Shown in pieces: positions 26,773 through 41,499 of a stretch of DNA of 41,654 bases; position 1 is the stretch's first letter, and each line of letters starts with the position of its first letter. The DNA comes from a virus, in IMG/VR virus record IMGVR_UViG_3300023284_000197, positions 1 to 41,654 of that record. One strand, 5' to 3'. Made by a program: the position numbers and the translations under genes. The notes beneath the pieces were generated by a model. The model worked only from the letters and a program-made list of their open reading frames with translations, was not told where the DNA came from and ran no database searches.

Positions 26773-27074
26773 GCCGCTATCCTCTGTTGTTGAGATTGAA
26801 TTTCCTGCAGCAGCTCCTCGGCAGCTTCCAAGACGTAGCCGATTCTCTCGATTCTCAGGCTGATCAAGTGGGCGAGCGCGGATTGCCCGGAAATCAGGCG
26901 GTTTTTGTCAAGATCGGAGCAGCTGCTGTCATCGTTCTCGCAAGATTCAATGATGCGTGTACTGCCCAGGAGGCCGTCGCAGGCTGATAAGATATCAATG
27001 TAGTCGTGAGACTTAACGAGACTTAATTGCTGGAGAACGGCTTGTAAACGGTTTTCAGGTGTGATGTTAGACAT
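26769..27074 (-). CDS. Hypothetical protein under C4-like leader control, 101 aa
   Basis: ATG 27074 has AAGGA eight bases upstream. The product (MSNITPENRLQAVLQQLSLV) is fully helical and ends in a glutamine-rich helix. No DNA-binding or enzyme motif is evident. The frame is open to 27287, but the upstream part is the structured leader. By the layout its translation would be blocked by the antisense segments in that leader. Confidence 0.65.
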   Translation of the reverse strand: MSNITPENRLQAVLQQLSLVKSHDYIDILSACDGLLGSTRIIESCENDDSSCSDLDKNRLISGQSALAHLISLRIERIGYVLEAAEELLQEIQSQQQRIAA

Positions 27075-27304
27075 GGGAGATTCCTTTTGAGTTTTAATAC
27101 TAAAGCCTCCAGTTAGTAGCTGGAGACCGGGTCTAACTAGAGCCTCAAAAGTCGCTCTGGGCATGTTTCCCCGAAGGGTATTGTATTCCGCCACTCGACC
27201 CGGCCATAAAGTTATGGCGCAAAAAAACCGCAAGACTGACAGGTGCGGAGGCCGCTTTTGAGTACTAGTGCAGCCATCGTAGTGCATAAATCACCTCTGT
27301 GCAA
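27075..27304 (-). ncRNA. C4-like antisense RNA leader, element 3
   Basis: Promoter-like TTGCAC (27304-27299), 17 bases, TACGAT (27281-27276). The RNA starts near 27268 with CTAGTACTCAAAAG, a mimic of the target. Antisense b' CTTTTGAG (27151-27144) and a' AGTTAG (27138-27133) can pair with a CTAACT (27116-27111) and b CTCAAAAG (27091-27084). Segment b runs into the AAGGA ribosome site of ATG 27074. An outer CCGGGTC/GACCCGG stem, a CCC-TTCG-GGG hairpin and an AGAGC/GCTCT stem are also visible. C4 RNAs of P1/P7 use this b'a'/ab logic; assignment to that family is inference from structure. Confidence 0.6.
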
Positions 27305-27307
27305 GTT

Positions 27308-28075
27308 TCATAAACAAACCCCTGGCCGCTGGTTCACCAGATTGTCCTCCACCTCCTCAATCTTCTCCAGCACTGTGAGATATTCAGCTATCGGCCCCAG
27401 TGCGCTCTTATCCAGATCGTCAATAGCAGCGATAACCACTGATTTAAAACGCCCCCAGGTTCTCGAGGCGTGAAACTCCATTCTGTTGACGCCCACCATT
27501 CGCGCCAGGTGTGAATCTGTGTATAAACCCGTACCATTGCTATAGCCCGCCTTCAGATCGTCCATCAGGGCTCTTACAACGTCGTTGTGCGTGGCTGTAT
27601 CGCGGGAAATCTGAGGGAGTAGCCCGATTTTTTTCAACTCACTGTACACATAATCAGCCACGTCATCGATATCAAACCACGTAAACTCTCGCGTATTGCA
27701 AAACATGCACCAAGCCCGGACTGGCACTTTATCATGCGGCAGCTTACCGACAAGCGACATAATTCGCCCGGCGTCCATTCCGTCCACAATCCGCCAGTCG
27801 TTATCTTTACCACCGGCAGACTGTTTAGCGTTCATTTTACCGCGGCATGTCAGCATACTGGGACGCCGAAACAGCGACTCGCAAGACCGGCAGCCCCACT
27901 TTTCGTCGCGCTTATCCCTTCCCGTCTCATAGCAATTGCCGTGAGTGCTGCAAGATGGGCAATACAGCCTGGGTGGCTCTGGATCGGTATCAAAATACTT
28001 GTAATCCGTCGCCGGGGTTAATTGCCCGCTGTCAGATGCCGCGATGATTGCCTGTCGTGCGCCGTAGAATCTCAT
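27308..28075 (-). CDS. Zinc-finger protein, candidate late antiterminator
   Basis: The 255-residue protein has two or three zinc-binding knuckles (CPSCSTHGNC; CRSCESLF; CMFCNTREF) and a C-terminal helix-turn-helix-like segment (YTDSHLARMVGVNRMEFHAS). It is the last regulatory-looking gene upstream of the late promoter, the place where lambdoid phages encode Q. Q-type proteins of some lambdoid groups contain zinc fingers. The sequence itself is not a match I can name, so the role is a positional inference. Confidence 0.5.
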   Translation of the reverse strand: MRFYGARQAIIAASDSGQLTPATDYKYFDTDPEPPRLYCPSCSTHGNCYETGRDKRDEKWGCRSCESLFRRPSMLTCRGKMNAKQSAGGKDNDWRIVDGMDAGRIMSLVGKLPHDKVPVRAWCMFCNTREFTWFDIDDVADYVYSELKKIGLLPQISRDTATHNDVVRALMDDLKAGYSNGTGLYTDSHLARMVGVNRMEFHASRTWGRFKSVVIAAIDDLDKSALGPIAEYLTVLEKIEEVEDNLVNQRPGVCL

Positions 28076-28449
28076 ATTGCATCCTTTTTCATTTTTATCA
28101 AATCAGCTATTACGCTGATGGCCTTGCCGCTTCGGACCATGCCGCCTGTGCACCGGTAAACTGCCCAGTTCATAAGCTGTGCACTCCCATATTTAATGCA
28201 ATCTCTCTCAAATCCGCCGCCCCGAGTGTGTGCACCGGATATCCATGTGCCGCCCTCCACTTCCACCGCCAGCATCAAGTCGGGCCACGAAAAATCAAAT
28301 CGCCAATCTCGCAATCCTGCGGCCTCCAGGCGGATTCCAAGCCCCTTGCCTATGCCTACGTGTTTAGCAGCGAACCGGTACTCTCTGACGGGCTCTGGCA
28401 GCTTGTGAGCGCGTATCTGAAATGCTAGTAAATCCTCTAATTCACTCAT
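28072..28449 (-). CDS. PD-(D/E)XK-type endonuclease (DUF559/Vsr-like)
   Basis: The 125-residue protein has the signature WRFDFSWPDLMLAVEVEGGTW (Asp52, Glu63, Glu65 region) followed by HTRGGGFERDCIKYGSAQLMNW. These match the catalytic core of phage endonucleases related to Vsr/DUF559. It probably acts on recombination or replication intermediates. It overlaps both neighbours by four bases. Confidence 0.82.
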   Translation of the reverse strand: MSELEDLLAFQIRAHKLPEPVREYRFAAKHVGIGKGLGIRLEAAGLRDWRFDFSWPDLMLAVEVEGGTWISGAHTRGGGFERDCIKYGSAQLMNWAVYRCTGGMVRSGKAISVIADLIKMKKDAI

Positions 28450-28742
28450 GCGACCAACTCCTGGCAGTAGGTTAATAATTCATTCTCGGTGCCGTGGCGG
28501 CGCTCAAACCGGGCCTTGTGCGGATGTCGGCTGGTGTACTCGGCGCAGTCTTTCCCGCCCTGGTGATGCGGATAGCACAGCGGAATAGTCAGCTTGTGTG
28601 CACCGGGTTTCGTCTTGCCGTCGATGTGGTGCGGCACTGCCGGACTGTAAACGCCATGCTCCCGTAGGCACACAATGCAGCCCAGTTGGCAGATAGCGTC
28701 CAGCCAGCGGCGTTCTTCGGCTGTTGGGGCTCGGCCTTTCAA
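28446..28742 (-). CDS. Ref-like HNH nuclease
   Basis: The 98-residue protein shows C-QLGCIVCLREHG, then PHHIDGKTKPGAHKLTIPLCYPHHQGG: two cysteines plus the H-H-I-x-G-x-T ... L-C-x-x-H-H motif of the P1 Ref family, RecA-dependent HNH nucleases. The C-terminal S-x-x-P-x-K-A-x-F-x-x-x-x-G fits phage relatives in nin-like regions. It lies between DUF1367-like and DUF559-like genes, a common lambdoid block. Confidence 0.82.
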   Translation of the reverse strand: MKGRAPTAEERRWLDAICQLGCIVCLREHGVYSPAVPHHIDGKTKPGAHKLTIPLCYPHHQGGKDCAEYTSRHPHKARFERRHGTENELLTYCQELVA

Positions 28743-29191
28743 AACTCAATCACCTTTTCGATCACCTCGTCCAAATCGTCGCGGGTGTAATTCGTCAAAA
28801 CTCGCTGCAGAATCACGTTCGCCACCGCGTTGTAAACCCGCCCGAATTCGTCCTCGCTCATGCTGCCGAACGATATGGATTTGGCGTCTGCCCTGACCTC
28901 GCATTTCAGATTTGCCACCAGGTCGTAAAATCCGGCTTGGATGATGCAATCCTTGCGGAACCGGTCAAAATCTTTCTGAACGATCCGGCCATGGTGCGTG
29001 GCTTCCGGCTCGAAAGCTTCAAAGCCGAGATTCAGCAGCGCGAAGAACTTGCGGTGGAATTGGGGATTCCTGACCTGGCGGTATTCACCAGAAACCAGAC
29101 TGCCCGAGGCAAACCGTCCAAGCTTCCGCTCATCCTCCTCGGTAGCAGGCATCAACACACCAGCGCGTTTAATCATGTTGATCTGAGTCAT
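28739..29191 (-). CDS. DUF1367-like phage protein
   Basis: From ATG 29191 (AGGAGG seven bases upstream) the product is 150 residues. It begins MTQINMIKRAGVLMPATEED and has the characteristic RNPQFHRKFFALLNLGFEAFEP and FRKDCIIQAGFYD segments of DUF1367, a conserved lambdoid gene near recombination nucleases. Its function is unknown. A TTG at 29215 could add eight residues but lacks a ribosome site. Confidence 0.82.
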   Translation of the reverse strand: MTQINMIKRAGVLMPATEEDERKLGRFASGSLVSGEYRQVRNPQFHRKFFALLNLGFEAFEPEATHHGRIVQKDFDRFRKDCIIQAGFYDLVANLKCEVRADAKSISFGSMSEDEFGRVYNAVANVILQRVLTNYTRDDLDEVIEKVIEF

Positions 29192-29414
29192 CCTTGTCCT
29201 CCTCGTAAGCGCCAACCAAAAGATTCAGTTTGAATTGGTCAATCAGCCAATTTGCCATTGTCCTGTCTATGCCTGAATTTCCGCGGACCTCAAGTTCGTT
29301 CTTTTTGTTCCAGCCAATAATTAAAACATTGTCGTAAACGCCAACAGCCGACTCCAGAGCATCATCCGGGTCGGCAGACGCGCTGCCCGGGTGTAGATTG
29401 ATCACGTCACCCAT
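29169..29414 (-). CDS. Hypothetical protein, 81 aa
   Basis: The small acidic protein begins MGDVINLHPGSASADPDDAL and contains VLIIGWNKKNELEVRGNSG, resembling short phage proteins of the nin-like region that end with an acidic tail. The 3' end overlaps the DUF1367-like start by 23 bases. Function unknown. Confidence 0.65.
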   Translation of the reverse strand: MGDVINLHPGSASADPDDALESAVGVYDNVLIIGWNKKNELEVRGNSGIDRTMANWLIDQFKLNLLVGAYEEDKDDSDQHD

Positions 29415-29604
29415 TCGATGCCCCCTGGATCAATTTAGCGATGGTTATGTTTATTGATTTAATGGCGTCATCCTGCATCACAATCGCCTGCTGGCGGGTG
29501 AAGCCTTTGGGAATACCGTGGCCTCCCTCGTAACTCTTGCGCCTCGCCTGCGCCGCTTCAAGCGCCTTTCTGGCCGTGTCTAATTTGGATTTTTGAATAC
29601 TCAC
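29407..29604 (-). CDS. Hypothetical helical protein, 65 aa
   Basis: The 65-residue protein (MSIQKSKLDTARKALEAAQA) is almost wholly helical, basic at the start, and lies with four to eight base overlaps to both neighbours. No family recognised. The tight operon position supports it. Confidence 0.6.
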   Translation of the reverse strand: MSIQKSKLDTARKALEAAQARRKSYEGGHGIPKGFTRQQAIVMQDDAIKSINITIAKLIQGASNG

Positions 29605-29909
29605 CTTGCGTTACTCCACTCAATGAACGGCGTACTCAGCAATTTAAACTTCCACTGGTGCGGCAGAAAATCAGCGTCCAATGAGTTCGGCGCCGATCTT
29701 TTTTTGCCCGTTCGCTTGTTTCTGCGGTACGAACTACTCAGGCCCAGCAGGGACTTGCCCCGGGTGATCATTTTTTGATAGGCGCCATCGGAGAGGCCGT
29801 ACCTGCCCATGATTTCGGTTGCCTCAAAACCCTGGAGGTACACAGACATCACGCCGCGAAGCCTGCGGTTTTTGATTTTGGACAAGTCGATTTTCTCACT
29901 CACGACCAA
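29601..29909 (-). CDS. Putative HTH protein, 102 aa
   Basis: The N-terminal half reads RRLRGVMSVYLQGFEATEIMGRYGLSDGAYQKM, with a helix-turn-helix-like G-x-x-x-x-E-I-x-x-R-Y-G-L-S pattern. The C-terminal half is basic. It follows the P-like gene and may be a DNA-binding accessory factor. The identification is by pattern only. Confidence 0.55.
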   Translation of the reverse strand: MVVSEKIDLSKIKNRRLRGVMSVYLQGFEATEIMGRYGLSDGAYQKMITRGKSLLGLSSSYRRNKRTGKKRSAPNSLDADFLPHQWKFKLLSTPFIEWSNAR

Positions 29910-30550
29910 CCCCCCACTTCCGCACTGAGTTTTTTAATCTGCGCCATTTGCTCACGGCGCGACAGAGGTTTGTTTTTTGGCTCATCGATCCGCTCAGCCT
30001 TCGGCACTTGCAGCTGTTCGCCAGCCATCACCCGGTTGATCACAGCCTGGTACTCACGCTCAAATTTCGGAAAAGCCTGGCGCTCCGTCTCCGATTTGAG
30101 GACGTAGGCAGTGGTGGCGACATACGCGATATACACCCCGGGATGTGTCCACTTCCGGTACTGAGGAGACTTTGCAAGCTGCCTGCAGGCTTCCAGGTAC
30201 GCAGCCTGGGCCGACGGCATACCGAAGTCTTCAGGGTGAGGTTTGCACAGTTCCGCCAGCACTCCTGGCCCTGGCATAAACTCCCGGCGCTTGGCGCGAT
30301 CCAGACCTTTGGCGATTTGCTGGCGTGTCAATCCGCGCAGCATTGCGGCGACCTCGGAGGCCAGCATTTCGACATTGCGCATGTCCGGAAACGCTTTGTC
30401 GAACTGCAGCGGCCAGTGCGTCCGGAGAACACCGATAACCATTTTTGCCATGTCAATCCGGGCCTGGTCTGACTGCTGCGTCGTAGATTTCTCCGACGAG
30501 CTGTGCGCCTGCTGAGATACGGTTTTGACCAGTTGATTGATTTGCTCCAT
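29900..30550 (-). CDS. Replication protein P-like (helicase loader)
   Basis: About 216 residues from ATG 30550 with GGAGG six bases upstream. It follows the O-like gene, as in lambda. WPLQFDKAFPDMRNVEMLAS and GLTRQQIAKGLDRAKRREFMPGPGVLAELCKP match the N-terminal region of lambda P-like loaders that bring DnaB to the origin. The start overlaps the O-like gene by 98 bases; a second start at 30451, right after the O stop, would give a shorter protein. Which is used is open. Confidence 0.8.
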   Translation of the reverse strand: MEQINQLVKTVSQQAHSSSEKSTTQQSDQARIDMAKMVIGVLRTHWPLQFDKAFPDMRNVEMLASEVAAMLRGLTRQQIAKGLDRAKRREFMPGPGVLAELCKPHPEDFGMPSAQAAYLEACRQLAKSPQYRKWTHPGVYIAYVATTAYVLKSETERQAFPKFEREYQAVINRVMAGEQLQVPKAERIDEPKNKPLSRREQMAQIKKLSAEVGGWS

Positions 30551-31253
30551 TGGAACCTCCACGGTTTTGATCTTTGGCCAGCCAGGAATTCATGAATTTC
30601 GGAACTCCCGACAGGGTTTTGCGTTTTGAAGAATTGGAATTTAACCAGCCGATCATGTTTCGGAATTGCTGCGGCACGTCCACCGCCGGGTACAAATTGG
30701 ACAGTTGGTCAATCTGAATCTGGTTAACCGGGTACACCTCCGATGAGGTGTTAAATTTATTTGTCGGCAGCTCAAAAATCGGAGGCTCGACAACCTCCGG
30801 CATGTCAGCCTCTGGCTGCGGGCAAGAGGTTTTATTGTTTGTTTGTTTGTTTAATTGTTTAATTGTTACATTGTTGTTTGTGGTTACTTGTTGGTTATTT
30901 GTTGGTTGTTTGTTGGTTACTTGTTGGTTAACTTGCTGGTTATTGTCCTGGTATTTACTCCAGCAACATATTGAAATCATTGAATATTTATTGGTTGATT
31001 TGATGGTTATCCCATTGGTTGATTTTAGCTTATTTAATGACGTCCTTATTTGCTGTTCTGAGAGCCCTGTTTCCGCGCTTAAAACGTGCCTTCCAGCTAT
31101 TAAACTGCCTGATTCAATAGTGATCCCACGCCATTTTTTTGGCTTGTGATTGGCTTTCAGCAGCAAGTGAATAAACAACCTGCAGGCGTTTTTATCGTCG
31201 TACCACTCCCACTCTAGGAGTGATCTATGCAGGCAAATCCAACCATCAGCCAC
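30453..31253 (-). CDS. Replication initiator O-like
   Basis: The 266-residue protein has an N-terminal winged-helix initiator domain (WICLHRSLLEWEWYDDKNAC; GSLIAGRHVLSAETGLSEQQIRTSL). A central glutamine/asparagine-rich linker (about 100-145) is encoded by iterated AACCAACAA-type DNA, and the C-terminal part (SNLYPAVDVPQQFRNMIGWL) would contact P. In lambda the origin iterons also lie inside O. The upstream 97-residue gene overlaps its start. Confidence 0.83.
   Translation of the reverse strand: MADGWICLHRSLLEWEWYDDKNACRLFIHLLLKANHKPKKWRGITIESGSLIAGRHVLSAETGLSEQQIRTSLNKLKSTNGITIKSTNKYSMISICCWSKYQDNNQQVNQQVTNKQPTNNQQVTTNNNVTIKQLNKQTNNKTSCPQPEADMPEVVEPPIFELPTNKFNTSSEVYPVNQIQIDQLSNLYPAVDVPQQFRNMIGWLNSNSSKRKTLSGVPKFMNSWLAKDQNRGGSNGANQSTGQNRISAGAQLVGEIYDAAVRPGPD
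30878..30945. other. Candidate replication origin: 11-bp iterons inside the O-like gene
   Basis: Four consecutive 11-bp units with core TGTTGGTT (plus strand; 30889-30932) are flanked by two degenerate copies. An A+T-rich tract (about 30960-31060) lies on one side and a poly-TTTG/TTAATT tract (about 30836-30870) on the other. This is the layout of lambda ori. Confidence 0.65.
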
Positions 31254-31539
31254 GGTCAGCTCCCTGGTTTAGATGAGTTTTAGTGCAGTCTTTTAGGGAG
31301 ACTCTTGGGATGTTGGTTAAATACCTCATTCCGTCCGTTAACACGATGTATTGATCCCCCCACTGGTCAGTGGTTACGGTGACGGTTTGACCCATCAGGA
31401 CGCATTCAGAGCCCACCAGAGAGTGAGTGGTGTTGTTGTTGTGACTGCATTTGTATGTGAAAAACGCTGGCACAGAAAAGGAAAAAATTAAACATAATGC
31501 CGTGGTCATTCCTGTGCCTTTAGTGTTAGTTTTTAACAT
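31246..31539 (-). CDS. Small exported or membrane-anchored protein, 97 aa
   Basis: GGAG six bases before ATG 31539. The N-terminus (MTTALCLIFSFSVPAFFTYK, about residues 11-30) is a hydrophobic export or anchor segment, followed by an extracytoplasmic-looking domain with three cysteines (KCSHNNNTTHS; SECVLMGQ; LKDCTKTH). It lies between the C4-like-controlled gene and the O-like gene, overlapping both. The family is unknown. Confidence 0.62.
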   Translation of the reverse strand: MLKTNTKGTGMTTALCLIFSFSVPAFFTYKCSHNNNTTHSLVGSECVLMGQTVTVTTDQWGDQYIVLTDGMRYLTNIPRVSLKDCTKTHLNQGADRG

Positions 31540-31759
31540 GGTCAGCTCCTTGATATTTATCCAGCATTTCGAGCATTCCGCGCCGGTCGGAATCGGATAG
31601 AAATACGTTTTCAGAAATGGATAATTCGGCGGATCGAGAAGGGGTGTGGCCGCTGTTTAAAAACCGCATAAACAGCATGATTGTCTCTTGGCCAGGCTGG
31701 TCTAAGTCGATGAATTTATTGATTGCTTCTTGAAATTTTGGTGCAGAAAATGCAGACAT
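31526..31759 (-). CDS. Hypothetical protein under C4-like leader control, 77 aa
   Basis: ATG 31759 follows CCGAGGGCACCACC, where GAGGG is the ribosome site. The helical product starts MSAFSAPKFQEAINKFIDLD. No family recognised. The frame continues upstream to 32032, but that DNA is the structured leader, so the long form is rejected. Translation would be blocked when the antisense segments bind, and the downstream replication genes could be affected through polarity. Confidence 0.65.
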   Translation of the reverse strand: MSAFSAPKFQEAINKFIDLDQPGQETIMLFMRFLNSGHTPSRSAELSISENVFLSDSDRRGMLEMLDKYQGADHVKN

Positions 31760-32029
31760 GGTGGTGCCCTCGGATAGATTGAGAGAACTGCCGCCATTAA
31801 TGCTAGTTAAGAGGGTGGCAGATGATACGGGCCTAGCATGACCGCTCCGAGGGGCGGCGCTCAAAAGAGCGCCCATATCATCCGCCATAAACTTCAGACG
31901 TAAAAAAAGACGCTTCTGATGAGCGCCGTTGCGCTCGGAACTTGGGATTTCAACCCTTGGGATGCTAGGCCCTGCGCCAGCTTTTGCCAGCGCACCCGAA
32001 GTATAGGCCGAGGAATTGCAGGGTGTCAA
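31760..32029 (-). ncRNA. C4-like antisense RNA leader, element 1
   Basis: A strong promoter TTGACA (32029-32024), 18 bases, TATACT (32005-32000). The RNA contains a target mimic (CTAGCAT at 31968-31962 and CCGAG at 31938-31934), hairpins GAGCGC/GCGCTC and GGCGCTC/GAGCGCC, then b' CCTCGG and a' ATGCTAGGCCC (31839-31829). These can pair with a CTAGCAT (31806-31800) and b CCGAGGGC (31773-31766), the last containing the ribosome site of ATG 31759. It shares the hairpin block GAGCGCAA-(A/C)-GGCGCTC, then TCAGAAGCG, a T-run and TTTATGG, with element 2. Confidence 0.72.
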
Positions 32030-32031
32030 CA

Positions 32032-32346
32032 TTACTTTGACCCCGGCTTTGGTGGCTTTTTAACGCGGACAGTGCGGCCATACCTGTTGCACTCGTCTTC
32101 ATAGTGAATTGAGCAATTCCAGTCTTTGCAGTCATCGTAGGAACGCTGCACAGGATCAGCAAAGCTCGGTACATCTACGCGTATCTGGCCAAGATGCTGC
32201 ACACCTCCCGCCTCAAATGCGCGCCTGAGCTTTTGGAATATCTCGGGCGCAAAGTCGTCAACACGAAGGTCTGAGAGCTCGCCTTGCTGAAGCTTCGTAA
32301 GCGCTACCGTTAAATCACAAATTGCTTTTAATTCGTCTGCTGTCAT
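32032..32346 (-). CDS. Hypothetical protein, 104 aa
   Basis: The product (MTADELKAICDLTVALTKLQ) is acidic and helical at first and ends in a basic tail with two cysteines (YDDCKDWNC). It starts in an ATGA overlap with the gene before it. ATGACAGCAGAC at its start is shared with two neighbours. Function unknown. Confidence 0.65.
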   Translation of the reverse strand: MTADELKAICDLTVALTKLQQGELSDLRVDDFAPEIFQKLRRAFEAGGVQHLGQIRVDVPSFADPVQRSYDDCKDWNCSIHYEDECNRYGRTVRVKKPPKPGSK

Positions 32347-32630
32347 GAATCTTCACCCTTCCACCAAAAAGGCGGAGTAATTCCATGCTTGTCGCACAGA
32401 TTTAAAATGGCGTCTTTTTCGCTCTTGCCAAATCCCATATCGTCCGGGTTATTCTTGTGCATGTACTCAAAAGCTGATTCAAATTCCATCCAGGCATTCC
32501 AGGGATTGGAATTCTGTGGAATCTCAGACTTGTGGGTGAAGACTTCATGCTCCACCTTCCAATCTGCAAGCGTGGCTTTTTGCTGGCCGATGCCGGGGAT
32601 TTCAATTTGTGGTGGGTTGTCTGCTGTCAT
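32343..32630 (-). CDS. Hypothetical protein, 95 aa
   Basis: ATG 32630 overlaps the upstream stop (ATGA). The product begins MTADNPPQIEIPGIGQQKAT and ends in FGKSEKDAILNLCDKHGITP then PPFWWKG. It is acidic and aromatic-rich, without a recognised family. An earlier start at 32723 would lie inside the next gene and is rejected. Confidence 0.62.
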   Translation of the reverse strand: MTADNPPQIEIPGIGQQKATLADWKVEHEVFTHKSEIPQNSNPWNAWMEFESAFEYMHKNNPDDMGFGKSEKDAILNLCDKHGITPPFWWKGEDS

Positions 32631-33666: not shown

Positions 33667-33669
33667 TGG

Positions 33670-35309: not shown

Positions 35310-35363
35310 TAACTATTCCTCAATCGTTTGTTACAGTGCAAAAATGAGACATCTAACGCTTGT

Positions 35364-35576: not shown

Positions 35577-35578
35577 GA

Positions 35579-35776
35579 TTAAGCGGGAGATTTTGAGCCC
35601 TCTTTGATTTTGCTAATCGGGATGCCGGTGTCCACATGGATATCAGCGATCAAGTAGAGCGGTACGCCGCGTATGCGCCAGTTATAAACGGCCATAGGCT
35701 GCATGTACTCAAAACGGGCCATGACGCCAGGTACACCGCCATAAGCTTCGATAATCTCGTTAACAATCTCTTCCAT
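35579..35776 (-). CDS. Cro/YdaS-like regulator
   Basis: The 65-residue protein (MEEIVNEIIEAYGGVPGVMA) has a helix-turn-helix with NWRIRGVPLYLIADIHVDTGI, the N-W-x-x-R-G-(V/I)-P ... I-x-x-x-T-G-I pattern of Cro and YdaS-like proteins. It is the first gene of the early minus-strand operon and diverges from the repressor gene, as cro does from cI. It would bind the intergenic operators. Confidence 0.82.
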   Translation of the reverse strand: MEEIVNEIIEAYGGVPGVMARFEYMQPMAVYNWRIRGVPLYLIADIHVDTGIPISKIKEGSKSPA

Positions 35777-35903
35777 TGGGGATCAATTTGTATGGGTTCA
35801 TTACATTAAAACACATTGTTTCAATAAAAGCAACACTATTAGTTTTATGTAACACAAGCCGTTTTATGCCATCATTGTATGAATTTCGTACAGGAAGCGT
35901 TGA
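35777..35903. promoter_or_regulatory. Divergent operator-promoter region
   Basis: This 127-bp A+T-rich spacer lies between the Cro-like and repressor genes. TTACATTAAAAC (around 35803) and its inverted counterpart GTTTTATGTAA (around 35843) differ by one base insertion and look like operator sites. On the minus strand TTGCTT followed after 17 bases by TTTAAT could be the Cro promoter. The repressor promoter is not clear. Confidence 0.6.
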
Positions 35904-36251
35904 GTGATAAAATCGATTGAGAATTATCGCGTTGCCAGATCACTGACAAAGGCCGATATGGCCCGGATTTTTGGCGTACCGTTGCAGAATTACAATAATT
36001 GGGTTTACAGGGGCAGTCTGCCCAAAGAGTACTTCAGAGAAGCTAGGCGGTTAGTCGGTGACGTGGAGATTGAGCGCGAGGCGTCAGAGATCGAGAGCAT
36101 CATACAGGCTCTCCCTCAGTGCCTCGCTGGTAGGGCTCTGGACATTCTGCGGTCGATAGAATCAGCCCGTGAACGCCATTCGGATGACGAGATTTTAGGA
36201 AAATTAGAAATTCTGTCTGCTGTCCTAGAGTTTCAGAAAAGGCCGAACTAA
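35904..36251 (+). CDS. Short CI-like repressor without peptidase domain
   Basis: The 115-residue protein (MIKSIENYRVARSLTKADMA) has an N-terminal helix-turn-helix (LTKADMARIFGVPLQNYNNWVYRGSLP) and a helical C-terminal region with no S24 Ser/Lys catalytic domain. The start is GTG 35904 with AGGA upstream. It is divergent from the Cro-like gene and is the likely lysogeny repressor. Lacking self-cleavage, it would need another inactivation route, such as the KilA-N antirepressor. Confidence 0.72.
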   Translation: MIKSIENYRVARSLTKADMARIFGVPLQNYNNWVYRGSLPKEYFREARRLVGDVEIEREASEIESIIQALPQCLAGRALDILRSIESARERHSDDEILGKLEILSAVLEFQKRPN

Positions 36252-36406
36252 AAGCCATTCCATCGTCGTGAAGACGGCTGAATTCATCAAACAATGCCAG
36301 GAAATCCACAACCCTCCGCCCCCCGAATATACCCTATTCTAATAACTCAGTGAGGCACTTTTTCCGGGGATTGCAAACAAAAAAACCAAAAGTGTGACGC
36401 AGTTCA
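36252..36406. other. Intergenic gap between repressor and moron operon
   Basis: No gene is supported here. A weak hairpin AGTG-AGG-CACT followed by five Ts lies near 36350-36367 and may end the repressor transcript. A C+T-rich tract (36310-36340) shows nothing else. Confidence 0.4.
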
Positions 36407-36562
36407 CTAATTGACTTTCTGATCCGGTTCTTTTTCAGCGGCTGCGCCACGCGCTCTCAGCTGTTCGTCGATCAGCGCGAATTCTTCTTCCAGGGCATCG
36501 TATTCGCGGCGCGCCTCCGGGTCTTGAAGGATGCGCTCTTTAAGTTGCTCTAGTTTGTCCAT
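36407..36562 (-). CDS. Small helical protein resembling a HigA N-terminus, 51 aa
   Basis: The product is MDKLEQLKERILQDPEARRE, then YDALEEEFALIDEQLRAR and an acidic tail. The pattern L-x-x-L-K-x-x-x-L-x-D-P-E-x-R-x-E-Y-D-A-L is the segment preceding the helix-turn-helix in HigA-type (XRE) antitoxins. The helix-turn-helix itself is absent. It follows the lipoprotein gene on the minus strand, inside a plus-strand area. No toxin partner is seen. Confidence 0.55.
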   Translation of the reverse strand: MDKLEQLKERILQDPEARREYDALEEEFALIDEQLRARGAAAEKEPDQKVN

Positions 36563-36564
36563 TA

Positions 36565-36837
36565 TCACTCGCACCTAAACACCAGCTCTACACTGCCGGG
36601 CCTGGCTATGTGCGTGTCAACTACTTTGAGATTGATGGTTTTTACGGACATGCCCTTCTTCGCACAAAATGCGTTGGCCTCCTTGTATATAGCGGCCTTG
36701 GTTCCGTTGGGTGGCCCGATGCCAAGCTGAGCGCTGCGGCTACTAATCATATATGTACCCTCGTCCATCAGAATGACGCCGGTGCTGCTGCATGACGCCA
36801 AAAACAACAACGATAAACCTATAAAAGCTGCTTTCAT
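36565..36837 (-). CDS. Phage-encoded small lipoprotein (possible moron)
   Basis: The 90-residue protein starts MKAAFIGLSLLFLASCSSTG with a signal peptide and a lipobox (FLAS-C), so it would be lipidated at Cys16. The mature part has two more cysteines (FCAKKG; VFRCE). The gene and its small partner oppose the flanking plus-strand operon, which suggests independent expression from the prophage. Surface alteration or superinfection exclusion is possible but unproven. Confidence 0.78.
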   Translation of the reverse strand: MKAAFIGLSLLFLASCSSTGVILMDEGTYMISSRSAQLGIGPPNGTKAAIYKEANAFCAKKGMSVKTINLKVVDTHIARPGSVELVFRCE

Positions 36838-36922
36838 CCTAATTCCATCCCGTCTCTAAAGTACCGCCAGAGTTTAAACCAAAACAGAAGGCGTTAAAAC
36901 GTCTGTTATAAAACGTTCTGTG

Positions 36923-36953
36923 TTGACATAGATACAACCATGTGTTTTACTGT
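36923..36953 (+). promoter_or_regulatory. Candidate plus-strand early promoter
   Basis: TTGACA (36923-36928) is followed after 17 bases by TTTACT or after 19 by TACTGT. Two AAAACGT-(T)-CTGT direct repeats just upstream (about 36897-36921) may bind a regulator. It precedes the plus-strand accessory gene operon. Confidence 0.55.
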
Positions 36954-37014
36954 ACCTCAACCACTCACCGATGCCAAGCCGAGCGAAGCATCAAAAAACG
37001 AATTGGGATTAAAA

Positions 37015-37278
37015 ATGAAACACAACTTCAAAATAGAATTGGGCGCTCCTGCCCGGGACAAGATAACCGGATTTGAGGGAATTGTCGTTAGCCGCACACA
37101 GTGGCTTAACGCATGCAACGTTTACGGAGTGCAGCCCAGCTCACTCAACAAGGACGGGGGCCTGAGGGATAAAGAGCATTTCGATGAGCCTCAACTGGAG
37201 GTCACTGGAACGAGCACGATAAAGCCAAAGCGCGAAACGGGCGGCCCGGCTCATGCGGCCGTACAGGCCAACAGGTAA
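37015..37278 (+). CDS. Conserved phage protein, 87 aa
   Basis: ATG 37015 is preferred because an ATG at 36940 lies in the promoter. The product (MKHNFKIELGAPARDKITGF) matches a small phage family with G-x-x-x-x-D-x-(I/V)-TGF-x-G-I-(V/A) then R-x-(Q/E)-(W/Y)-L-N-x-C-x-x-Y-G-V-Q-P and F-D-E-x-Q-L-E. It probably forms a small beta fold. Function unknown. Confidence 0.75.
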   Translation: MKHNFKIELGAPARDKITGFEGIVVSRTQWLNACNVYGVQPSSLNKDGGLRDKEHFDEPQLEVTGTSTIKPKRETGGPAHAAVQANR

Positions 37279-37361
37279 CTCCCCCTGGTGAGGCTGGCGG
37301 TGTAGCGAATAGCAGCTGCCAGCGGGTTAAACGAAAATCTACTTAAAGCAAGGGTAAAAAA

Positions 37362-37679
37362 ATGAGCCAACCAAACACCATCACAATCGACGACATTTTG
37401 TACGTTCGTCAGGATTCAATAAAGAAATCGGCCCCTGAAATCGGGGACACCAGGATCATCGCTGCAGATAAGGGGTTTGTCTTTGTCGGAAAGTGCGAAG
37501 ACCAAGAAGACGGCACTGTTGTCATTCGTAACGCAAAGAACATTCGACGCTGGGGGACCACAAAAGGGCTCGGCGAACTATCCGGTGGGCCTACATCAAA
37601 AACCCAATTCGATGACTACGGAACTGTTCGCTGCAAGCCCATTATCTCCATTGCGGTAACTGGCGGTTGGGATGATTGA
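37362..37679 (+). CDS. Conserved phage protein, 105 aa
   Basis: The product contains YVRQDSIKK, then GFVFVGKCEDQEDGTVVIRN and IRRWGTTKGLGELSGGPTSK. The G-(W/F)-V-F-V-G ... A-x-x-I-R-x-W-G-T-x-x-G-L-G-E-L pattern is a known small phage family of unknown function. It overlaps the start of the GYG-repeat gene (ATG inside GATGATTGA), so the two are probably translated together. Confidence 0.78.
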   Translation: MSQPNTITIDDILYVRQDSIKKSAPEIGDTRIIAADKGFVFVGKCEDQEDGTVVIRNAKNIRRWGTTKGLGELSGGPTSKTQFDDYGTVRCKPIISIAVTGGWDD

Positions 37680-37875
37680 TTTAGTGGTCGGCTACGGCTA
37701 CGGCTACGGCTACGGCGACGGCTACGGCAACGGCAACGGCTACGGCTACGGCAACGGCTACGGCTACGGCGACGGCTACGGCTACGGCAACGGCTACGGC
37801 AACGGCAACGGCGACGGCGACGGCAACGGCTACGGCTACGGCAACGGCAACGGCGACGGCGACGGCTACGGTTAG
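37672..37875 (+). CDS. Low-complexity (G-Y/N/D)n protein, 67 aa
   Basis: After MIDLVV the product is G followed by thirty X-G dipeptides with X = Tyr (15), Asn (9) or Asp (6). It could form a sticky, tyrosine-glycine-rich disordered peptide. The start is coupled to the preceding gene (overlap of eight bases). Every glycine except the last is GGC and every X is NAC, so the DNA varies only at the first base of X. The function is unknown. The opposite strand is also open but reads only Val-Ala. Confidence 0.6.
   Translation: MIDLVVGYGYGYGYGDGYGNGNGYGYGNGYGYGDGYGYGNGYGNGNGDGDGNGYGYGNGNGDGDGYG
37690..37869 (+). repeat. Thirty GGC-NAC hexamer repeats
   Basis: An array of 30 hexamers GGC-(T/A/G)AC without a single third-base change. 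C is never found at the variable base. Confidence 0.9.
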
Positions 37876-37880
37876 GAGCT

Positions 37881-38066
37881 TATATATGTAGGGGCAGTGG
37901 ATGCGCAGGCTGATGCGACACGACGCGGATAAGTGAAGGTGGAAAGGCGCTAAGCCAGTTGGCCAGGCGGCTAAGTAGCCCACCGGGTCAAATGCTCACC
38001 GTTTACGATTTGTAACCAGCAGACCAATGCCGGAGATCAGCACCGGCCACTGCCCCTTCATATATA
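37881..38066. repeat. Intergenic element bounded by a 20-bp inverted repeat
   Basis: TATATATGTAGGGGCAGTGG (37881-37900) and its inverse at 38047-38066 match at 19 of 20 positions and enclose 146 bp. Inside, GGCTAAGTAGCC forms a small hairpin and no long ORF is found. AGGAG followed after seven bases by ATG-TAG gives a start-stop minigene at the left arm. Confidence 0.75.
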
Positions 38067-38093
38067 GGTTTAAAGAATTAACAGAGGTGTGGA

Positions 38094-38276
38094 ATGAAAT
38101 GGCAAGATAAATTATCAAAACGTGAATTGTCTCACTTGCGGAAAAGTGGAGTAACCACCCTGACAGTGGCGCGCGCAAATGCTGAGCACCAGCTGAAGTT
38201 GCGCAGAAAGCCTGAATCTATTGAGCCGTGCTGGGACTGCAAGAGCATTAATCGCAAGCTTGGGCTTGCTGTATAA
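38094..38276 (+). CDS. Small basic protein, 60 aa
   Basis: GAGG lies nine bases before ATG 38094. The product (MKWQDKLSKRELSHLRKSGV) is strongly basic and helical and ends with C-W-D-C, a possible half zinc site. It resembles short phage proteins whose helix begins with K-x-x-R-E-L-x-H-L-R. Function unknown. Confidence 0.6.
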   Translation: MKWQDKLSKRELSHLRKSGVTTLTVARANAEHQLKLRRKPESIEPCWDCKSINRKLGLAV

Positions 38277-38291
38277 AATTGGGGAAGTGAA

Positions 38292-38468
38292 ATGAGCAAA
38301 ATATTACAGCGGATTAAATGCTTTTTGACAGAGCATAAATGGACTTGCGCTCCGGCTGAAGGGATTGACTGCACAGAGGCTCAATTGAGCGCGGGGTATT
38401 TCGGTTTCTTGGACTATTCAAAAACGTATTGCGGTCGCTGCGGAAAATTAAAGGGTGGTGTGAAATGA
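38292..38468 (+). CDS. Small zinc-knuckle protein, 58 aa
   Basis: ATG 38292 has GGGGA upstream. The product (MSKILQRIKCFLTEHKWTCA) has Cys near the start, CAPAEGIDC, and ends in YCGRCGKLKGG, a C-x2-C knuckle. Four or more cysteines could hold one zinc (DUF1660-like pattern, tentative). The TGA overlaps the next ATG. Confidence 0.55.
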   Translation: MSKILQRIKCFLTEHKWTCAPAEGIDCTEAQLSAGYFGFLDYSKTYCGRCGKLKGGVK

Positions 38469-38845
38469 AAGAAGTGAGATTTGAATCAGTAGAAGCGCTT
38501 GCTTTAGCGCTCATTAAAAGGCGGCGGTTTTGTATTCCTGGCGAATCCAAAGAAATTCATTATGACGAGGACGCTACAGGCTCCCCGTTCCGTTTCGGCA
38601 ACAGCGCCCTGGCTTACGGCTGGAACCACTATGAAAAACTCCATGAAATTGTGGAATGGTACGAAGAAGCCCTGCCGGGGAGGGTCTTGTGCTGGACAAG
38701 TGACAGATCACCAGGCGACAAAGACGAGGCCCATTGGGTAACACTCTACATCCCTAAGCGCACCTTTCCGTTTAGGGCTGAGAACTCCTTCTGGAAATAC
38801 GCCACCCCTGTTAAACCGGAAGAGTGCCTGGGTGGTGCGGAATGA
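38465..38845 (+). CDS. Hypothetical phage protein, 126 aa
   Basis: ATG 38465 overlaps the previous stop (ATGA). The product (MKEVRFESVEALALALIKRR) has HYDEDATGSPFRFGNSALAY and two W-rich segments. It is mixed alpha/beta and soluble. No recognised family. Confidence 0.65.
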   Translation: MKEVRFESVEALALALIKRRRFCIPGESKEIHYDEDATGSPFRFGNSALAYGWNHYEKLHEIVEWYEEALPGRVLCWTSDRSPGDKDEAHWVTLYIPKRTFPFRAENSFWKYATPVKPEECLGGAE

Positions 38846-39123
38846 GCAACGATAACTGCTGCCTATGCGGCGAGCCTAGGAAGCCAACACAAACTCCTGT
38901 TGAGAGTTTTGGTAACTCTGACCGAATAGTAACAATAAAACAGCACCGGGAGTTACAGGCGGGTCGATGGGAGCAAAGCCCACAACTAATCGTAAATGTA
39001 AGTTTTTGGCGCAATGGCGGAACAGCTCCAGGGCGAACCCACATCTGTAGCGGCTGTATTATTGTTGGATTACAACACGCCAAAAAATTTGTGGATGAAA
39101 CGCTACACCAAATGGGTGCCTAG
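38842..39123 (+). CDS. Zinc-ribbon-like phage protein, 93 aa
   Basis: ATG 38842 overlaps the upstream stop (ATGA). The product begins MSNDNCCLCGEPRKPTQTPV, and CCLCG at the start pairs with CSGCI near residue 73, a likely zinc ribbon. An in-frame start six codons upstream is not used. Function unknown. Confidence 0.62.
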   Translation: MSNDNCCLCGEPRKPTQTPVESFGNSDRIVTIKQHRELQAGRWEQSPQLIVNVSFWRNGGTAPGRTHICSGCIIVGLQHAKKFVDETLHQMGA

Positions 39124-39150
39124 CTCGCATAAATATACAAACTGAGATTT

Positions 39151-39170
39151 GAATTATTGAGGATGGTGAT
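39151..39170 (+). repeat. Start-adjacent repeat, family A copy 2
   Basis: GAATTATTGAGGATGGTGAT, directly before GTG 39171. Identical to copy 3 and differing at two bases from copy 1. Confidence 0.85.
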
Positions 39171-39380
39171 GTGAATTGTGAACGCGCAACCAAGTTAGTA
39201 CCAGGCTGCATTGTATTTATGAAGGCAGCGTCAGGAATGAGAGGCTACGGCAATCCTCAATGCGTTAGTAACGTTTGCGAACCGCTGGGAGAGATAAGTC
39301 TTTTTGGGCATAACCAATGCTACAAAGATTATCACGTATTAAGAGTCATTAAATACCCGCTTATCGAATGTGAAAGCTGA
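39171..39380 (+). CDS. Hypothetical protein, 69 aa
   Basis: GTG 39171 sits directly after a family A repeat, which supplies GAGGA. The product (MNCERATKLVPGCIVFMKAA) is beta-rich with five cysteines and does not resemble the other genes that share this repeat. Unknown function. Confidence 0.58.
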   Translation: MNCERATKLVPGCIVFMKAASGMRGYGNPQCVSNVCEPLGEISLFGHNQCYKDYHVLRVIKYPLIECES

Positions 39381-39398
39381 ATTATTGAGGATGGTGAT
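39379..39398 (+). repeat. Start-adjacent repeat, family A copy 3
   Basis: GAATTATTGAGGATGGTGAT, directly before ATG 39399. It overlaps the stop of the previous gene (TGA at 39378-39380). Confidence 0.85.
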
Positions 39399-39758
39399 AT
39401 GAAAATAATTAATTGGTTTAAAAAGCTGATGGAAATAGTTGCCGATTATGACAAAAAGATCGAGCAGCAGAAGAAGCAAAACAAAACTTATCGAAGGCTG
39501 ATAAGTGAGGCTGTCCGACTAATTCAAGACCGTACCGACATAAGTGTGGGTGCTGCATTCAATAAACATATGCACAATCAAATTATCGTTACGGGCAGGT
39601 ACAAAAATCGTGACTATGTTGAGGTGTTTACTATCGCTCACGGCGAACTTGAGCACTTAATACATCAGCTCAGAGAGATGCAGCGTTACGGCGTTGTTAA
39701 CAAAATTGATGCTCCTATCGGTATGCGAGCCGTTATTGACCGAGAGATTAGGTGGTGA
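39399..39758 (+). CDS. Hypothetical protein, 119 aa
   Basis: The product (MKIINWFKKLMEIVADYDKK) begins with an amphipathic helix and a coiled-coil-like basic segment (IEQQKKQNKTYRRLI). A small alpha/beta domain follows. The repeat-provided ribosome site supports the start. Family unknown. Confidence 0.62.
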   Translation: MKIINWFKKLMEIVADYDKKIEQQKKQNKTYRRLISEAVRLIQDRTDISVGAAFNKHMHNQIIVTGRYKNRDYVEVFTIAHGELEHLIHQLREMQRYGVVNKIDAPIGMRAVIDREIRW

Positions 39759-39780
39759 AATGACGACGGCTTTTATTTAA

Positions 39781-39799
39781 CTGTACTGGAGAAGACAAG
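39781..39799 (+). repeat. Start-adjacent repeat, family C copy 1
   Basis: CTGTACTGGAGAAGACAAG, identical to 40174-40192. It precedes ATG 39808 by eight bases and carries GGAG. Confidence 0.8.
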
Positions 39800-39807
39800 G
39801 AATTTAC

Positions 39808-40149
39808 ATGCTAGATGAAATGCTGGAAGTAGAGAGAAGCGATAAAATTTATCCTGGTATAAATACCCGCGTATTTGCTGACTTTGAACGTGAAGATACT
39901 GGCCCAGCTGAATTTCAAGGGCCGAGTTTTCAAGTAGGCAGTGGATATACTTTGATTTTAAAGGTGGGGGTCGATTTTATCGCAAACGATGTCGAGCTGC
40001 ACAGGAAGACCGAGCTTGCCAAAGAGCAACTGAGACATGCTTTGTACAAAGACGTGATTACAGACCTTCATGGGATCGGCAATTTATCGCAAGACGCTGA
40101 GGTTCAAAAAAGAGTGTATGCGCTCATCAAAAAGCTGCAAGTCACATAA
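39808..40149 (+). CDS. Hypothetical protein, 113 aa
   Basis: The product (MLDEMLEVERSDKIYPGINT) is acidic with a beta region (GSGYTLILKVGVDFIAND) and a C-terminal helix pair (QLRHALYKDVITDLHGIGNL). A family C repeat lies just upstream. Family unknown. Confidence 0.62.
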   Translation: MLDEMLEVERSDKIYPGINTRVFADFEREDTGPAEFQGPSFQVGSGYTLILKVGVDFIANDVELHRKTELAKEQLRHALYKDVITDLHGIGNLSQDAEVQKRVYALIKKLQVT

Positions 40150-40173
40150 CCCTACAAACTGAACACTAACGAT

Positions 40174-40192
40174 CTGTACTGGAGAAGACAAG
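40174..40192 (+). repeat. Start-adjacent repeat, family C copy 2
   Basis: CTGTACTGGAGAAGACAAG directly abuts ATG 40193. Confidence 0.8.
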
Positions 40193-40654
40193 ATGAAAAT
40201 TGAAAAAAAAGAAACAGAGACTTATGTACTGACCGACATGGAACGGCTAGACCCGGTGACGGTTTACGTCACAAATCATAAGGTGGGCCAAGGAAAGATT
40301 GTCATTGAGTGCTTTGGCGAATCCTGGTCTTACTTTTGGGGCGGCATGGGGGAGCGCTCACTGCAGCAATTTTTTGTGACATGCGAAAACGACTACGTCC
40401 TTGGAAAATTAGTGAAAGAAACTCGCCAAACTGACTTCGACGAGATTAACGGGATTGCACACACCAAGGGTGTTTCGCTTAGCGTTGGCAGCGATGTTGA
40501 TATCGCAATGCAGATGCAGGAAATGGACGAATGTTTTGGCCCGGACTGGCACATGGATTTACCAAAATGCAACACGCAAGAATATCACTATGTCGATAGG
40601 ATTGTGAGTGCTATCAAGGCGGCGTTTAGCGATGAATTAAAGGTCGCGGCGTGA
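40193..40654 (+). CDS. Conserved phage protein, 153 aa
   Basis: The product contains LDPVTVYVTNHKVGQGKIVI and SWSYFWGGMGERSLQQFF. The S-W-S-Y-(Y/F)-W-G-x-M-G motif is one I associate with a small lambdoid protein family of unknown function. Its end touches the promoter of the C4-like leader. Confidence 0.7.
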   Translation: MKIEKKETETYVLTDMERLDPVTVYVTNHKVGQGKIVIECFGESWSYFWGGMGERSLQQFFVTCENDYVLGKLVKETRQTDFDEINGIAHTKGVSLSVGSDVDIAMQMQEMDECFGPDWHMDLPKCNTQEYHYVDRIVSAIKAAFSDELKVAA

Positions 40655-40656
40655 GC

Positions 40657-40911
40657 TTGACACCAGCGGTAAACATGCGCTATTCTGATCCTGCACTGAC
40701 ACAAGTTGGTGCTGGGATTGATACCCTAGTTACGAGCGCAAAGGCGCTCTTCAGAAGCGCTTTTTTCATGCCCAAGCTTTATGGTGGGCTGTATGGGGGC
40801 TCTTCGGAGCGCCGATCTCGTACCGGTAGTATCAACCCCGTACAGTCCGCCACTTTTATACAGATTGATACCTGTTTGTGGCGGTTCTCTCACAAGTACG
40901 AGGGCTCCACC
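40657..40911 (+). ncRNA. C4-like antisense RNA leader, element 2
   Basis: Promoter TTGACA (40657-40662), 18 bases, TATTCT (40681-40686). The RNA has a target mimic (TTGATAC 40718-40724 and TACGAG 40731-40736), hairpins GAGCGC/GCGCTC and GGCTC-TTCG-GAGCGCC, then b' CTCGTAC (40817-40823) and a' GTATCAA (40829-40835). These can pair with a TTGATAC (40865-40871) and b GTACGAG (40896-40902), which lies on the ribosome site of KilA-N. The hairpin block is clearly homologous to element 1, while the pairing sequences differ. Confidence 0.75.
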
Positions 40912-41499
40912 ATGAACGATTTAGTCATACACGACAAATCCGTCCGCACTCTCAACAATCTGTACTGCCTCAACGATCTGCACAAAGCTTCTGGCGGTGT
41001 AGCCAAACACCAGCCAAGCAACTTCCTGCGCAATAATCAGGTTAAAGACCTGATAGCCGAAATTACAAACTCCTCAGATTTGAGGAATATACAATCAATC
41101 GCCGGTCGCCATGGCGGCACCTACGTTTGCGAGGAGCTGGTCTATGCCTATGCGATGTGGGTCAATGCTGAGTTTGCGCTACACGTAATCCGCGTATTTA
41201 AAGCACAGCAATACCCTGCCCTGTCCACCCTGCCCCCGGAAGTCACCGAATACATCGACAACACCGCGACTGTAATAGCCATGCAGGCGCGCACCAAGAT
41301 TGCCGCGAAGATCACCGCATGGGCGCACGAACGCCCTCACCTGTCGCCACAGGAGCTGATCGCCTGGATGGATGGCATCAGAAAGCCCCGGCCTTTATTC
41401 CTCACCAGCGAAGATACCGAGACCGTCAGGGCATTAATGAAAACCCTCACTCAGTTCAGTGCTGAGCTGGCCGCGAAACTGGAAGAGGTGGCGCTATGA
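40912..41499 (+). CDS. KilA-N domain protein, putative antirepressor
   Basis: The 195-residue protein starts at ATG 40912, nine bases after the b segment of the C4-like leader. Residues 1-100 are a KilA-N domain (CLNDLHKASGGVAKHQPSNF; YVCEELVYAYAMWVNAEFAL). The C-terminal half is helical. KilA-N proteins include the antirepressors of P1 and related phages, which inactivate the lysogenic repressor. An earlier start at 40651 would translate the leader and is rejected. The stop overlaps the next start. Confidence 0.85.
   Translation: MNDLVIHDKSVRTLNNLYCLNDLHKASGGVAKHQPSNFLRNNQVKDLIAEITNSSDLRNIQSIAGRHGGTYVCEELVYAYAMWVNAEFALHVIRVFKAQQYPALSTLPPEVTEYIDNTATVIAMQARTKIAAKITAWAHERPHLSPQELIAWMDGIRKPRPLFLTSEDTETVRALMKTLTQFSAELAAKLEEVAL

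Follow-up and report, generated by a model that had tools for sequence, protein, structure and literature searches.

Does a single phage genome carry three C4-like antisense RNA switches, each with its own pairing code, and could they form a regulon? The question came from an earlier note on the window, that is, the whole 41,654-nt stretch of viral DNA analysed here (IMG/VR record IMGVR_UViG_3300023284_000197). All three leaders with their named segments are indeed present, at or within 1 to 2 bases of where the note had placed them (Table 1). The gene settings are also as described: a KilA-N gene, whose product is probably an antirepressor, an operon with an O-like/DnaD and a P-like gene, and the stretch from a weak Q-like gene to the endolysin gene. 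In all three leaders segment b lies at the ribosome site, and a' and b' are complementary to a and b. The b'a'/ab geometry of the P1/P7 C4 RNA (RF01695) is supported for the three leaders; it comprises a three-way junction, in which b' occupies the loop of hairpin 2 and a' the junction itself, with targets a and b placed ahead of the gene, and a single transcript that holds both leader and target. In contrast to P1/P7, the window has three different codes, only leader 3 stands before an antirepressor gene, and leader 1 does not match C4.

Table 1. Parts of the three leaders and the genes behind them (positions in the window)
Feature	Position	Strand	Remark
Leader 1 promoter-like site	27276..27304	-	weak; TTGCAC, 17 nt, TACGAT; from sequence
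Leader 1 mimic, a1 ACTAGT + b1 CTCAAAAG	27255..27269	-	a1 27264-27269; b1 27255-27262
Leader 1 terminator-like hairpin	27221..27248	-	CCGC...GCGG, then T7
Leader 1 antisense element	27117..27205	-	sRNA-Xcc1 family (RF02221), under curated cut-off
Leader 1 b' CTTTTGAG	27144..27151	-	hairpin-2 loop
Leader 1 a' AGTTAG	27133..27138	-	junction
Leader 1 target a CTAACT	27111..27116	-	in hairpin loop
Leader 1 target b CTCAAAAG	27084..27091	-	overlaps ribosome site
P0002	26769..27074	-	101-aa orphan; first gene behind leader 1, before endolysin
Leader 2 promoter-like site	32000..32029	-	TTGACA-18-TATACT; 11/12 consensus matches
Leader 2 mimic, a1 CTAGCAT + b1 CCGAG	31934..31968	-	a1 31962-31968
Leader 2 terminator-like hairpin + T run	31902..31927	-	
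Leader 2 C4 antisense RNA (RF01695)	31811..31892	-	55.7 bits, cut-off 45
Leader 2 b' CCTCGG	31847..31852	-	
Leader 2 a' ATGCTAG	31833..31839	-	
Leader 2 target a CTAGCAT	31800..31806	-	
Leader 2 target b CCGAGG	31768..31773	-	over Shine-Dalgarno region
P0001	31526..31759	-	77-aa orphan; first gene behind leader 2; overlaps next operon gene
DnaD/O-like gene	30453-31253		same operon as P0001
P-like gene	29900-30562		same operon as P0001
Leader 3 promoter-like site	40657..40686	+	TTGACA-18-TATTCT; 10/12 consensus matches
Leader 3 mimic, a1 TTGATAC + b1 ACGAG	40718..40736	+	a1 40718-40724
Leader 3 hairpins, then T run	40734..40766	+	missed by stricter terminator scan
Leader 3 C4 antisense RNA (RF01695)	40777..40857	+	58.9 bits, cut-off 45
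Leader 3 b' CTCGTAC	40817..40823	+	
Leader 3 a' GTATCAA	40829..40835	+	
Leader 3 target a TTGATAC	40865..40871	+	
Leader 3 target b GTACGAG	40896..40902	+	over Shine-Dalgarno region
KilA-N domain protein	40912..41499	+	PF04383, E 7.5e-19; phrog_129 transcriptional regulator, E 5.9e-38

The check with the Rfam C4 covariance model that the earlier note had proposed placed leaders 2 and 3 over the cut-off, but leader 1 gave no match, did not reach the C4 cut-off and resembled sRNA-Xcc1 (RF02221) instead. Its match to the sRNA-Xcc1 model was full length (46.8 bits, cut-off 53, E 2.4e-5), and a 601-base search gave an end-to-end alignment with an E of 3.4e-7. The layout of the module equals that of sRNA-Xcc1 members over the cut-off, as found by alignment with 39 phage members and the symE modules and by the own-target test, and GCGGTTTTTTTG 3' of the mimic is common to leader 1 and the symE modules. 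Judged by its sequence, leader 1 is a divergent sRNA-Xcc1 member rather than a C4 match and would only work like C4. In folding, the antisense RNAs of leaders 2 and 3 had z values of -5.75 and -5.86, but the stability of leader 1 was not above that of shuffles (z -1.4). A promoter had been proposed for each leader; the consensus scan picked out those of leaders 2 and 3 and missed the TTGCAC/TACGAT site of leader 1, and leader 1 is without a good sigma-70 site. The mimic copies the target in all three leaders, but in leaders 2 and 3 its b1 segment falls short of the full length of b. For the mimic of leader 1, the complementarity score was 13 with its own leader and 9 to 10 with the other two.

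If these are switches with codes of their own, the antisense segments should fit their own targets better than foreign ones. The comparison covered 69 to 72 elements of the C4 and sRNA-Xcc1 families, most of them found in other phages. With a loose pairing score, the difference between own and shuffled targets was only moderate, and zone-restricted tests were used instead. In both families, an element's b' (hairpin-2 loop) and a' (junction) fitted the site downstream in that element much better than the sites of others (z 25 and 18), and its upstream mimic repeated this code. Among 69 elements, the longest b'/b match was 7.04 for own and 4.08 for foreign targets (highest of 10,000 permutations, 4.61), and the longest a'/a match was 6.35 versus 3.99. 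With 71 elements, the combined pairing test gave 13.6 versus 9.4 (highest of 5,000 permutations, 10.4) and the mimic test 13.6 versus 9.6 (highest of 5,000 permutations, 10.5). Each leader of the window ranked its own target first among the targets of the 71 elements, and thus the pairing in the window goes beyond chance. The covariation of a/a' and b/b' that the earlier note had named as its own test was strong across the elements. By column it was counted in the C4 alignment, loop lengths in sRNA-Xcc1 being variable: the a'/a helix was 92.7% paired, versus 25 to 47% in slid versions, and 26 cells were changed on both sides versus 6.8 in shuffled alignments (0 of 500 shuffles). The three codes, said to be distinct, were mutually specific in silico, with energies of -22.2, -27.2 and -27.2 kcal/mol for own targets and -5.7 to -17.2 kcal/mol for the others. 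Together with the gene settings, the sequence would predict a working three-switch regulon.

The note had also taken three switches in one phage to be exceptional, and this had to be given up: of 100 records to which both models were applied, 11 had three to six such elements, in most cases 5' of antirepressor genes. Many C4-like sRNAs are also described for Acinetobacter genomes (PMC5320573). A loose C4 sequence pattern yielded mostly chance hits (real C4 in 4 of 44 records), whereas a stricter pattern was effective and was the source of all 35 C4-bearing records in one scan. The genes behind the elements (n = 65) were mostly antirepressor genes (Bro-N, 18; KilA-N, 16; P22_AR_N, 9; AntA, 6; pRha, 4). 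What is unusual in the window is that two of its three switches front small orphan genes, which head the replication operon and the pre-lysis region. A probable antirepressor operon as target was found for leader 3, with its KilA-N gene; for leaders 1 and 2, the gene next in line had no family match. P0002 had no match in Pfam, PHROG, PDB, phages or plasmids, and an alignment of small proteins did not support one family of P0002 and other small targets; P0001 had no family match and no phage relatives. Peptide patterns found no IMG/VR relatives of P0001, P0002 or the Q-like protein, and AlphaFold models made without alignment were of low confidence for both P0001 and P0002 (pLDDT 57 and 71). 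A close relative that shares the three leaders with the window was not found, so a single genome is the basis for the two orphan targets. In the scanned relatives of its replication module (Vibrio, Pseudoalteromonas and Shewanella phages; IMG/VR records), C4 was absent from that place.

The upstream mimic itself is already known: it is filed in Rfam as c4-a1b1 and isrK and is seen in Gifsy-1, where the locus runs IsrK, C4 (STnc1160 region), orf45 and anrP (PMC4825925; RF01394, RF03163, RF01695). Our control scan of Gifsy-1 gave the order Q, c4-a1b1/isrK, C4, anrP. In the window, c4-a1b1, which matched in Gifsy-1, had no match up to an E of 1; the mimic-terminator regions of leaders 2 (31903-31993; 29.0 bits, E 0.016) and 3 (40693-40767; 29.6 bits, E 0.011) matched isrK weakly (cut-off 50). 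Leader 1 shares the setting of Gifsy-1, in which a mimic RNA with terminator, C4, a small ORF and the antirepressor gene come directly after the Q gene, but leader 1 has an antisense RNA of the sRNA-Xcc1 type and stands before an orphan gene, with lysis genes next in line. The C4-like Group 1 sRNAs of Acinetobacter baumannii are also numerous in one genome, with different a' and C4-like processing patterns, and a move to host targets has been proposed for them; unlike in the window, no downstream target of their own is described in the part of that report at hand (PMC5320573).

sRNA-Xcc1 is known as an integron-borne, virulence-linked, trans-acting sRNA of Xanthomonas with no assigned target (PMC2996969, PMC12444791), and in Rfam it stands outside the C4 clan. 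Its members in phages, plasmids and chromosomes are nevertheless laid out like C4, with a mimic, a terminator, an antisense RNA and a target. Since b' and a' match the member's own target and the code recurs in the mimic, we regard sRNA-Xcc1 as a C4-type switch. As a by-product, full-module sRNA-Xcc1 was seen 5' of SymE toxin genes in other bacteria.

How would the three leaders work? A promoter would drive a leader composed of mimic (a1 b1), terminator-like hairpin, folded antisense RNA and target (a b), the target lying across the first gene's ribosome site. A stop at the terminator would leave a short mimic RNA; read-through would give the C4-type RNA and the mRNA. In P1/P7, the C4-type RNA is excised by RNase P as an RNA of about 77 nt (PMC5320573, citing Hartmann 1995), and we infer processing in this phage as well. 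In trans, b' of the antisense RNA would then bind b at the ribosome site, and a' would bind a; this would repress translation of the gene as well as, by coupling or polarity, that of the operon which follows. By competing for the antisense RNA, the short mimic may lift the block, much as short IsrK switches on AnrP in the Gifsy-1 prophage locus. With three different codes, the switches would act independently of each other, one on the antirepressor gene, one at the start of the replication operon and one on the gene that comes first between the Q-like gene and the lysis genes. That the phage has three C4-type switches with different codes working in this way is, in our judgement, highly probable.

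Alternatively, the main action of the leaders could be P4-like attenuation in cis: pairing of the antisense RNA with the upstream mimic would cause premature termination rather than a block of the ribosome site in trans. The mimic bears the code of the target, and 51 of 72 elements have a terminator-like hairpin between mimic and antisense RNA (1.9% of shuffles). P4 CI RNA works in this manner by pairing with seqA (discussed in PMC4825925); by analogy, P4 immunity would resemble leader 2 in its antisense RNA, complementary sites on either side and control of a replication operon, P4 acting by premature termination where the window has a terminator-like site. However, most elements have segment b over the ribosome site, some 8 to 12 nt 5' of the start codon, a position that attenuation does not call for, and the two modes are not mutually exclusive; we consider a mainly cis mode unlikely. 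Less probable still, and in our view improbable, is that only leader 3 is a working C4 switch and that leaders 1 and 2 are left over from antirepressor cassettes in which unrelated small genes have taken the place of the lost antirepressor gene, while the RNA parts have not yet decayed. Nearly all other elements do stand before antirepressor genes, leader 1 occupies the place after the Q-like gene that C4-anrP has in Gifsy-1, C4 cassettes sit 5' of a replication gene in G139, and P0001 and P0002 are orphans. Yet a relic would be expected to lose the match of a'/b', a/b and a1/b1, and neither leader 1 nor leader 2 shows any loss in its codes, mimic, terminator or spacing to the start codon; moreover, well-matched C4-type leaders are also found 5' of small non-antirepressor genes in other phages and bacteria. 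Chance complementarity around ordinary hairpins can be practically dismissed: the segments are only 6 to 8 nt long and shuffled sequence often yields a single match of such short length, but for the families it is excluded by the permutation and covariation tests on about 70 elements, and the window's own sites come first among 71.

Should the three C4-type switches work as proposed, such switches may govern replication and the entry into lysis besides antirepressors. A wider reading, for which we see the case as evenly balanced, is that C4-type RNAs are a plug-in module of general use whose code changes freely, beyond the control of antirepressors as in P1, with three to six independent copies at work in some phages; this phage would also gate its replication operon and its entry into lysis with them, and sRNA-Xcc1 would belong to the same class and be the antisense antitoxin to SymE in integron cassettes. 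sRNA-Xcc1, an experimentally described RNA carried on the most widespread integron cassette of Xanthomonas, would gain a mechanism and a predicted, testable target, and IsrK, C4 and sRNA-Xcc1 would be joined in one module. With several antisense switches, each specific to its own target, phages would have a natural set of orthogonal RNA regulators.

The three leaders of the window, on which the earlier note had proposed C4-like switches, comprise a mimic (a1/b1), a terminator-like hairpin, an antisense RNA with b' in the loop of hairpin 2 and a' in the junction, and the targets a and b; all segments named in that note were found in place. With Rfam, leaders 2 and 3 matched C4 (RF01695) with 55.7 and 58.9 bits (cut-off, 45), whereas leader 1 gave no C4 match but aligned end to end to sRNA-Xcc1 (RF02221) with 46.8 bits, below the cut-off of 53 (E 2.4e-5, entire window against all families). 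In leaders 2 and 3, the stretch of mimic and terminator gave weak isrK matches (29 bits, E 0.01 to 0.02).

Judged from its sequence, sRNA-Xcc1 belongs to the C4-type switches. Scanning IMG/VR with a pattern gave well over 100 matching stretches, the majority sRNA-Xcc1-like, and the sRNA-Xcc1 model matched 50 of 50 pattern-matching records (47 above the cut-off). The b' and a' of 72 Rfam-called C4 and sRNA-Xcc1 elements, including the three of the window, were scored against their own downstream leader and all others. Own leaders scored 13.6 on average and foreign leaders 9.4, where 5,000 permutations reached a mean of at most 10.4; the corresponding values for the upstream mimic were 13.6, 9.6 and 10.5. 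With b restricted to the 26 nt upstream of the start codon, own and foreign pairing was 7.04 and 4.08 nt for b'/b (z = 24.9) and 6.35 and 3.99 for a'/a (z = 18.2). In an alignment of 16 C4 sequences, the a'/a helix was paired to 92.7%, with 26 double changes versus 6.8 in shuffled alignments (0 of 500 shuffles); sliding the helix lowered pairing to 25 to 47%. Of the 72 elements, 51 had a terminator-like hairpin between them and the mimic, compared to 1.9% of mononucleotide shuffles. Most of 65 downstream proteins were antirepressors (Bro-N, 18; KilA-N, 16; P22_AR_N, 9; AntA, 6; pRha, 4), and independent annotation agreed (AntB in Stx phage P27; BRO, Bro-N and Rha genes on plasmids). No paper joining C4 and sRNA-Xcc1 mechanistically was found in the open-access literature, from which alone novelty was judged.

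The distinct pairing codes proposed for the three leaders were borne out by computed duplex energies of short segments, which predict rather than measure binding: the summed values were -22.2, -27.2 and -27.2 kcal/mol with the own targets and -5.7 to -17.2 kcal/mol with the other two, the own target pairing best each time. Among 52 elements of multi-switch phages, the means were -20.3 (own) and -12.0 (other). Three switches in one phage are, however, not the exception they had been taken for, and are not rare among carriers: both models were applied to 100 records, and 11 of these had at least three elements; since the majority of the 100 had been picked for bearing a motif, this is not a prevalence. 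Six elements were found in G004 and G040, five in G012, four in G011, G032 and G139, and three in G014, G035, G042, G111 and G129. In G139, four tandem C4 cassettes, each with its own code and followed by a gene that we read as a Rha-like regulator, lie immediately upstream of a replication gene, the same place as leader 2.

The window still stands out for the genes behind leaders 1 and 2, which are small orphans (P0002, 101 aa, and P0001, 77 aa, respectively); through them, the two leaders are predicted to front the lysis region in the first case and the replication operon in the second. The 41.7-kb IMG/VR virus record has a lambdoid gene order: an integrase-like gene, weak Cro-like and CII-like genes, a methyltransferase, a DnaD/O-like and P-like replication operon, NinB, a Ref-like nuclease, a weak Q-like match, endolysin and terminase. 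Behind leader 2, translational coupling is plausible, since P0001 shares 14 nt with the next gene, which in turn shares 8 nt with the O-like gene; behind leader 1, P0002 is followed by a gap of about 100 nt. The window also contains a long low-complexity stretch that would read as a VAVAVA repeat protein on the reverse strand.

Positions of features in the window and in record G139
Feature	Strand	Positions
ORF, in our reading the integrase		4351-5484
Leader 1	-	27075-27304
Leader 1, sRNA-Xcc1-like element	-	27117-27205
Open frame through leader 1	-	26769-27287
Leader 2	-	31760-32029
Leader 2, C4 match	-	31811-31892
Open frame through leader 2	-	31526-32032
Low-complexity stretch		37681-37983
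Leader 3	+	40657-40911
Leader 3, C4 match	+	40777-40857
Open frame through leader 3	+	40651-41499
Alternative pairing, leader 3		40847-40853 with 40878-40884
Four C4 cassettes (L455)		G139:34000-46000

The downstream gene's frame continues uninterrupted through all three leaders (216, 300 and 276 nt upstream), and among 64 elements such frames were only mildly enriched (16 in-frame versus 7 and 9); gene callers may therefore misplace starts in such leaders. Where sRNA-Xcc1 elements fall outside the antirepressor group, many precede small proteins of 70 to 150 aa (L471, L474, L476, L478, L481, L483, L497, L278, L312), several without a Pfam match where scanned, which are perhaps Icd-like leader proteins; at L449 and L454, a small gene is followed by an antirepressor.

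The mimic is already known as Rfam family c4-a1b1 (RF03163). Since Gifsy-1 has the order Q, c4-a1b1/isrK, C4, anrP, leader 1, directly after the weak Q-like gene, occupies the position of the Gifsy-1 cassette. The steps from folding to repression would follow those described for P1/P7 C4 (PMC5320573) and IsrK (PMC4825925). Short IsrK turns on translation of the read-through transcript, which is also processed to give STnc1160, the RNA immediately downstream; the authors likened this arrangement to P4 CI RNA (PMC4825925). Going beyond the claims of that paper, we interpret IsrK as sponging a C4-type RNA. In C4-type leaders (A3 columns), a GTGGTGA-like copy downstream of target a provides another possible pairing partner for the antisense RNA's 3' arm; the predicted alternative hairpin would expose a in its loop and exclude the C4 fold in cis.

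sRNA-Xcc1 matches were also found in 25 of 369 gammaproteobacterial genomes. In two of these, G286 and G222, elements (L470, L472, L495, L496, L500, L501) lie about 30 to 50 nt upstream of genes for proteins of 65 to 66 aa; all four proteins tested matched SymE_toxin (PF08845) above the cut-off, and two more looked similar. Each element belongs to a whole module with mimic, terminator and matching a/b, and the a code varies in step across antisense, target and mimic (a'/a: GTTGTCAA/TTGACAA, TTTTGAA/TTCAAAA, TTTTCAC/GTGAAAA, TTTCTAA/TTAGAAA, TTTCTAG/CTAGAAA). The b codes are less distinct, and a clean separation of cross energies was not found within this set. Some of the elements have attC-like repeats close by. 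sRNA-Xcc1 near SymE-type genes is possibly a C4-type antitoxin of SymE. The most widespread integron cassette of Xanthomonas carries sRNA-Xcc1 upstream of symE, with its mechanism unexplained (PMC12444791); from the G286 and G222 modules, we propose that sRNA-Xcc1 acts there as the antisense antitoxin of SymE.
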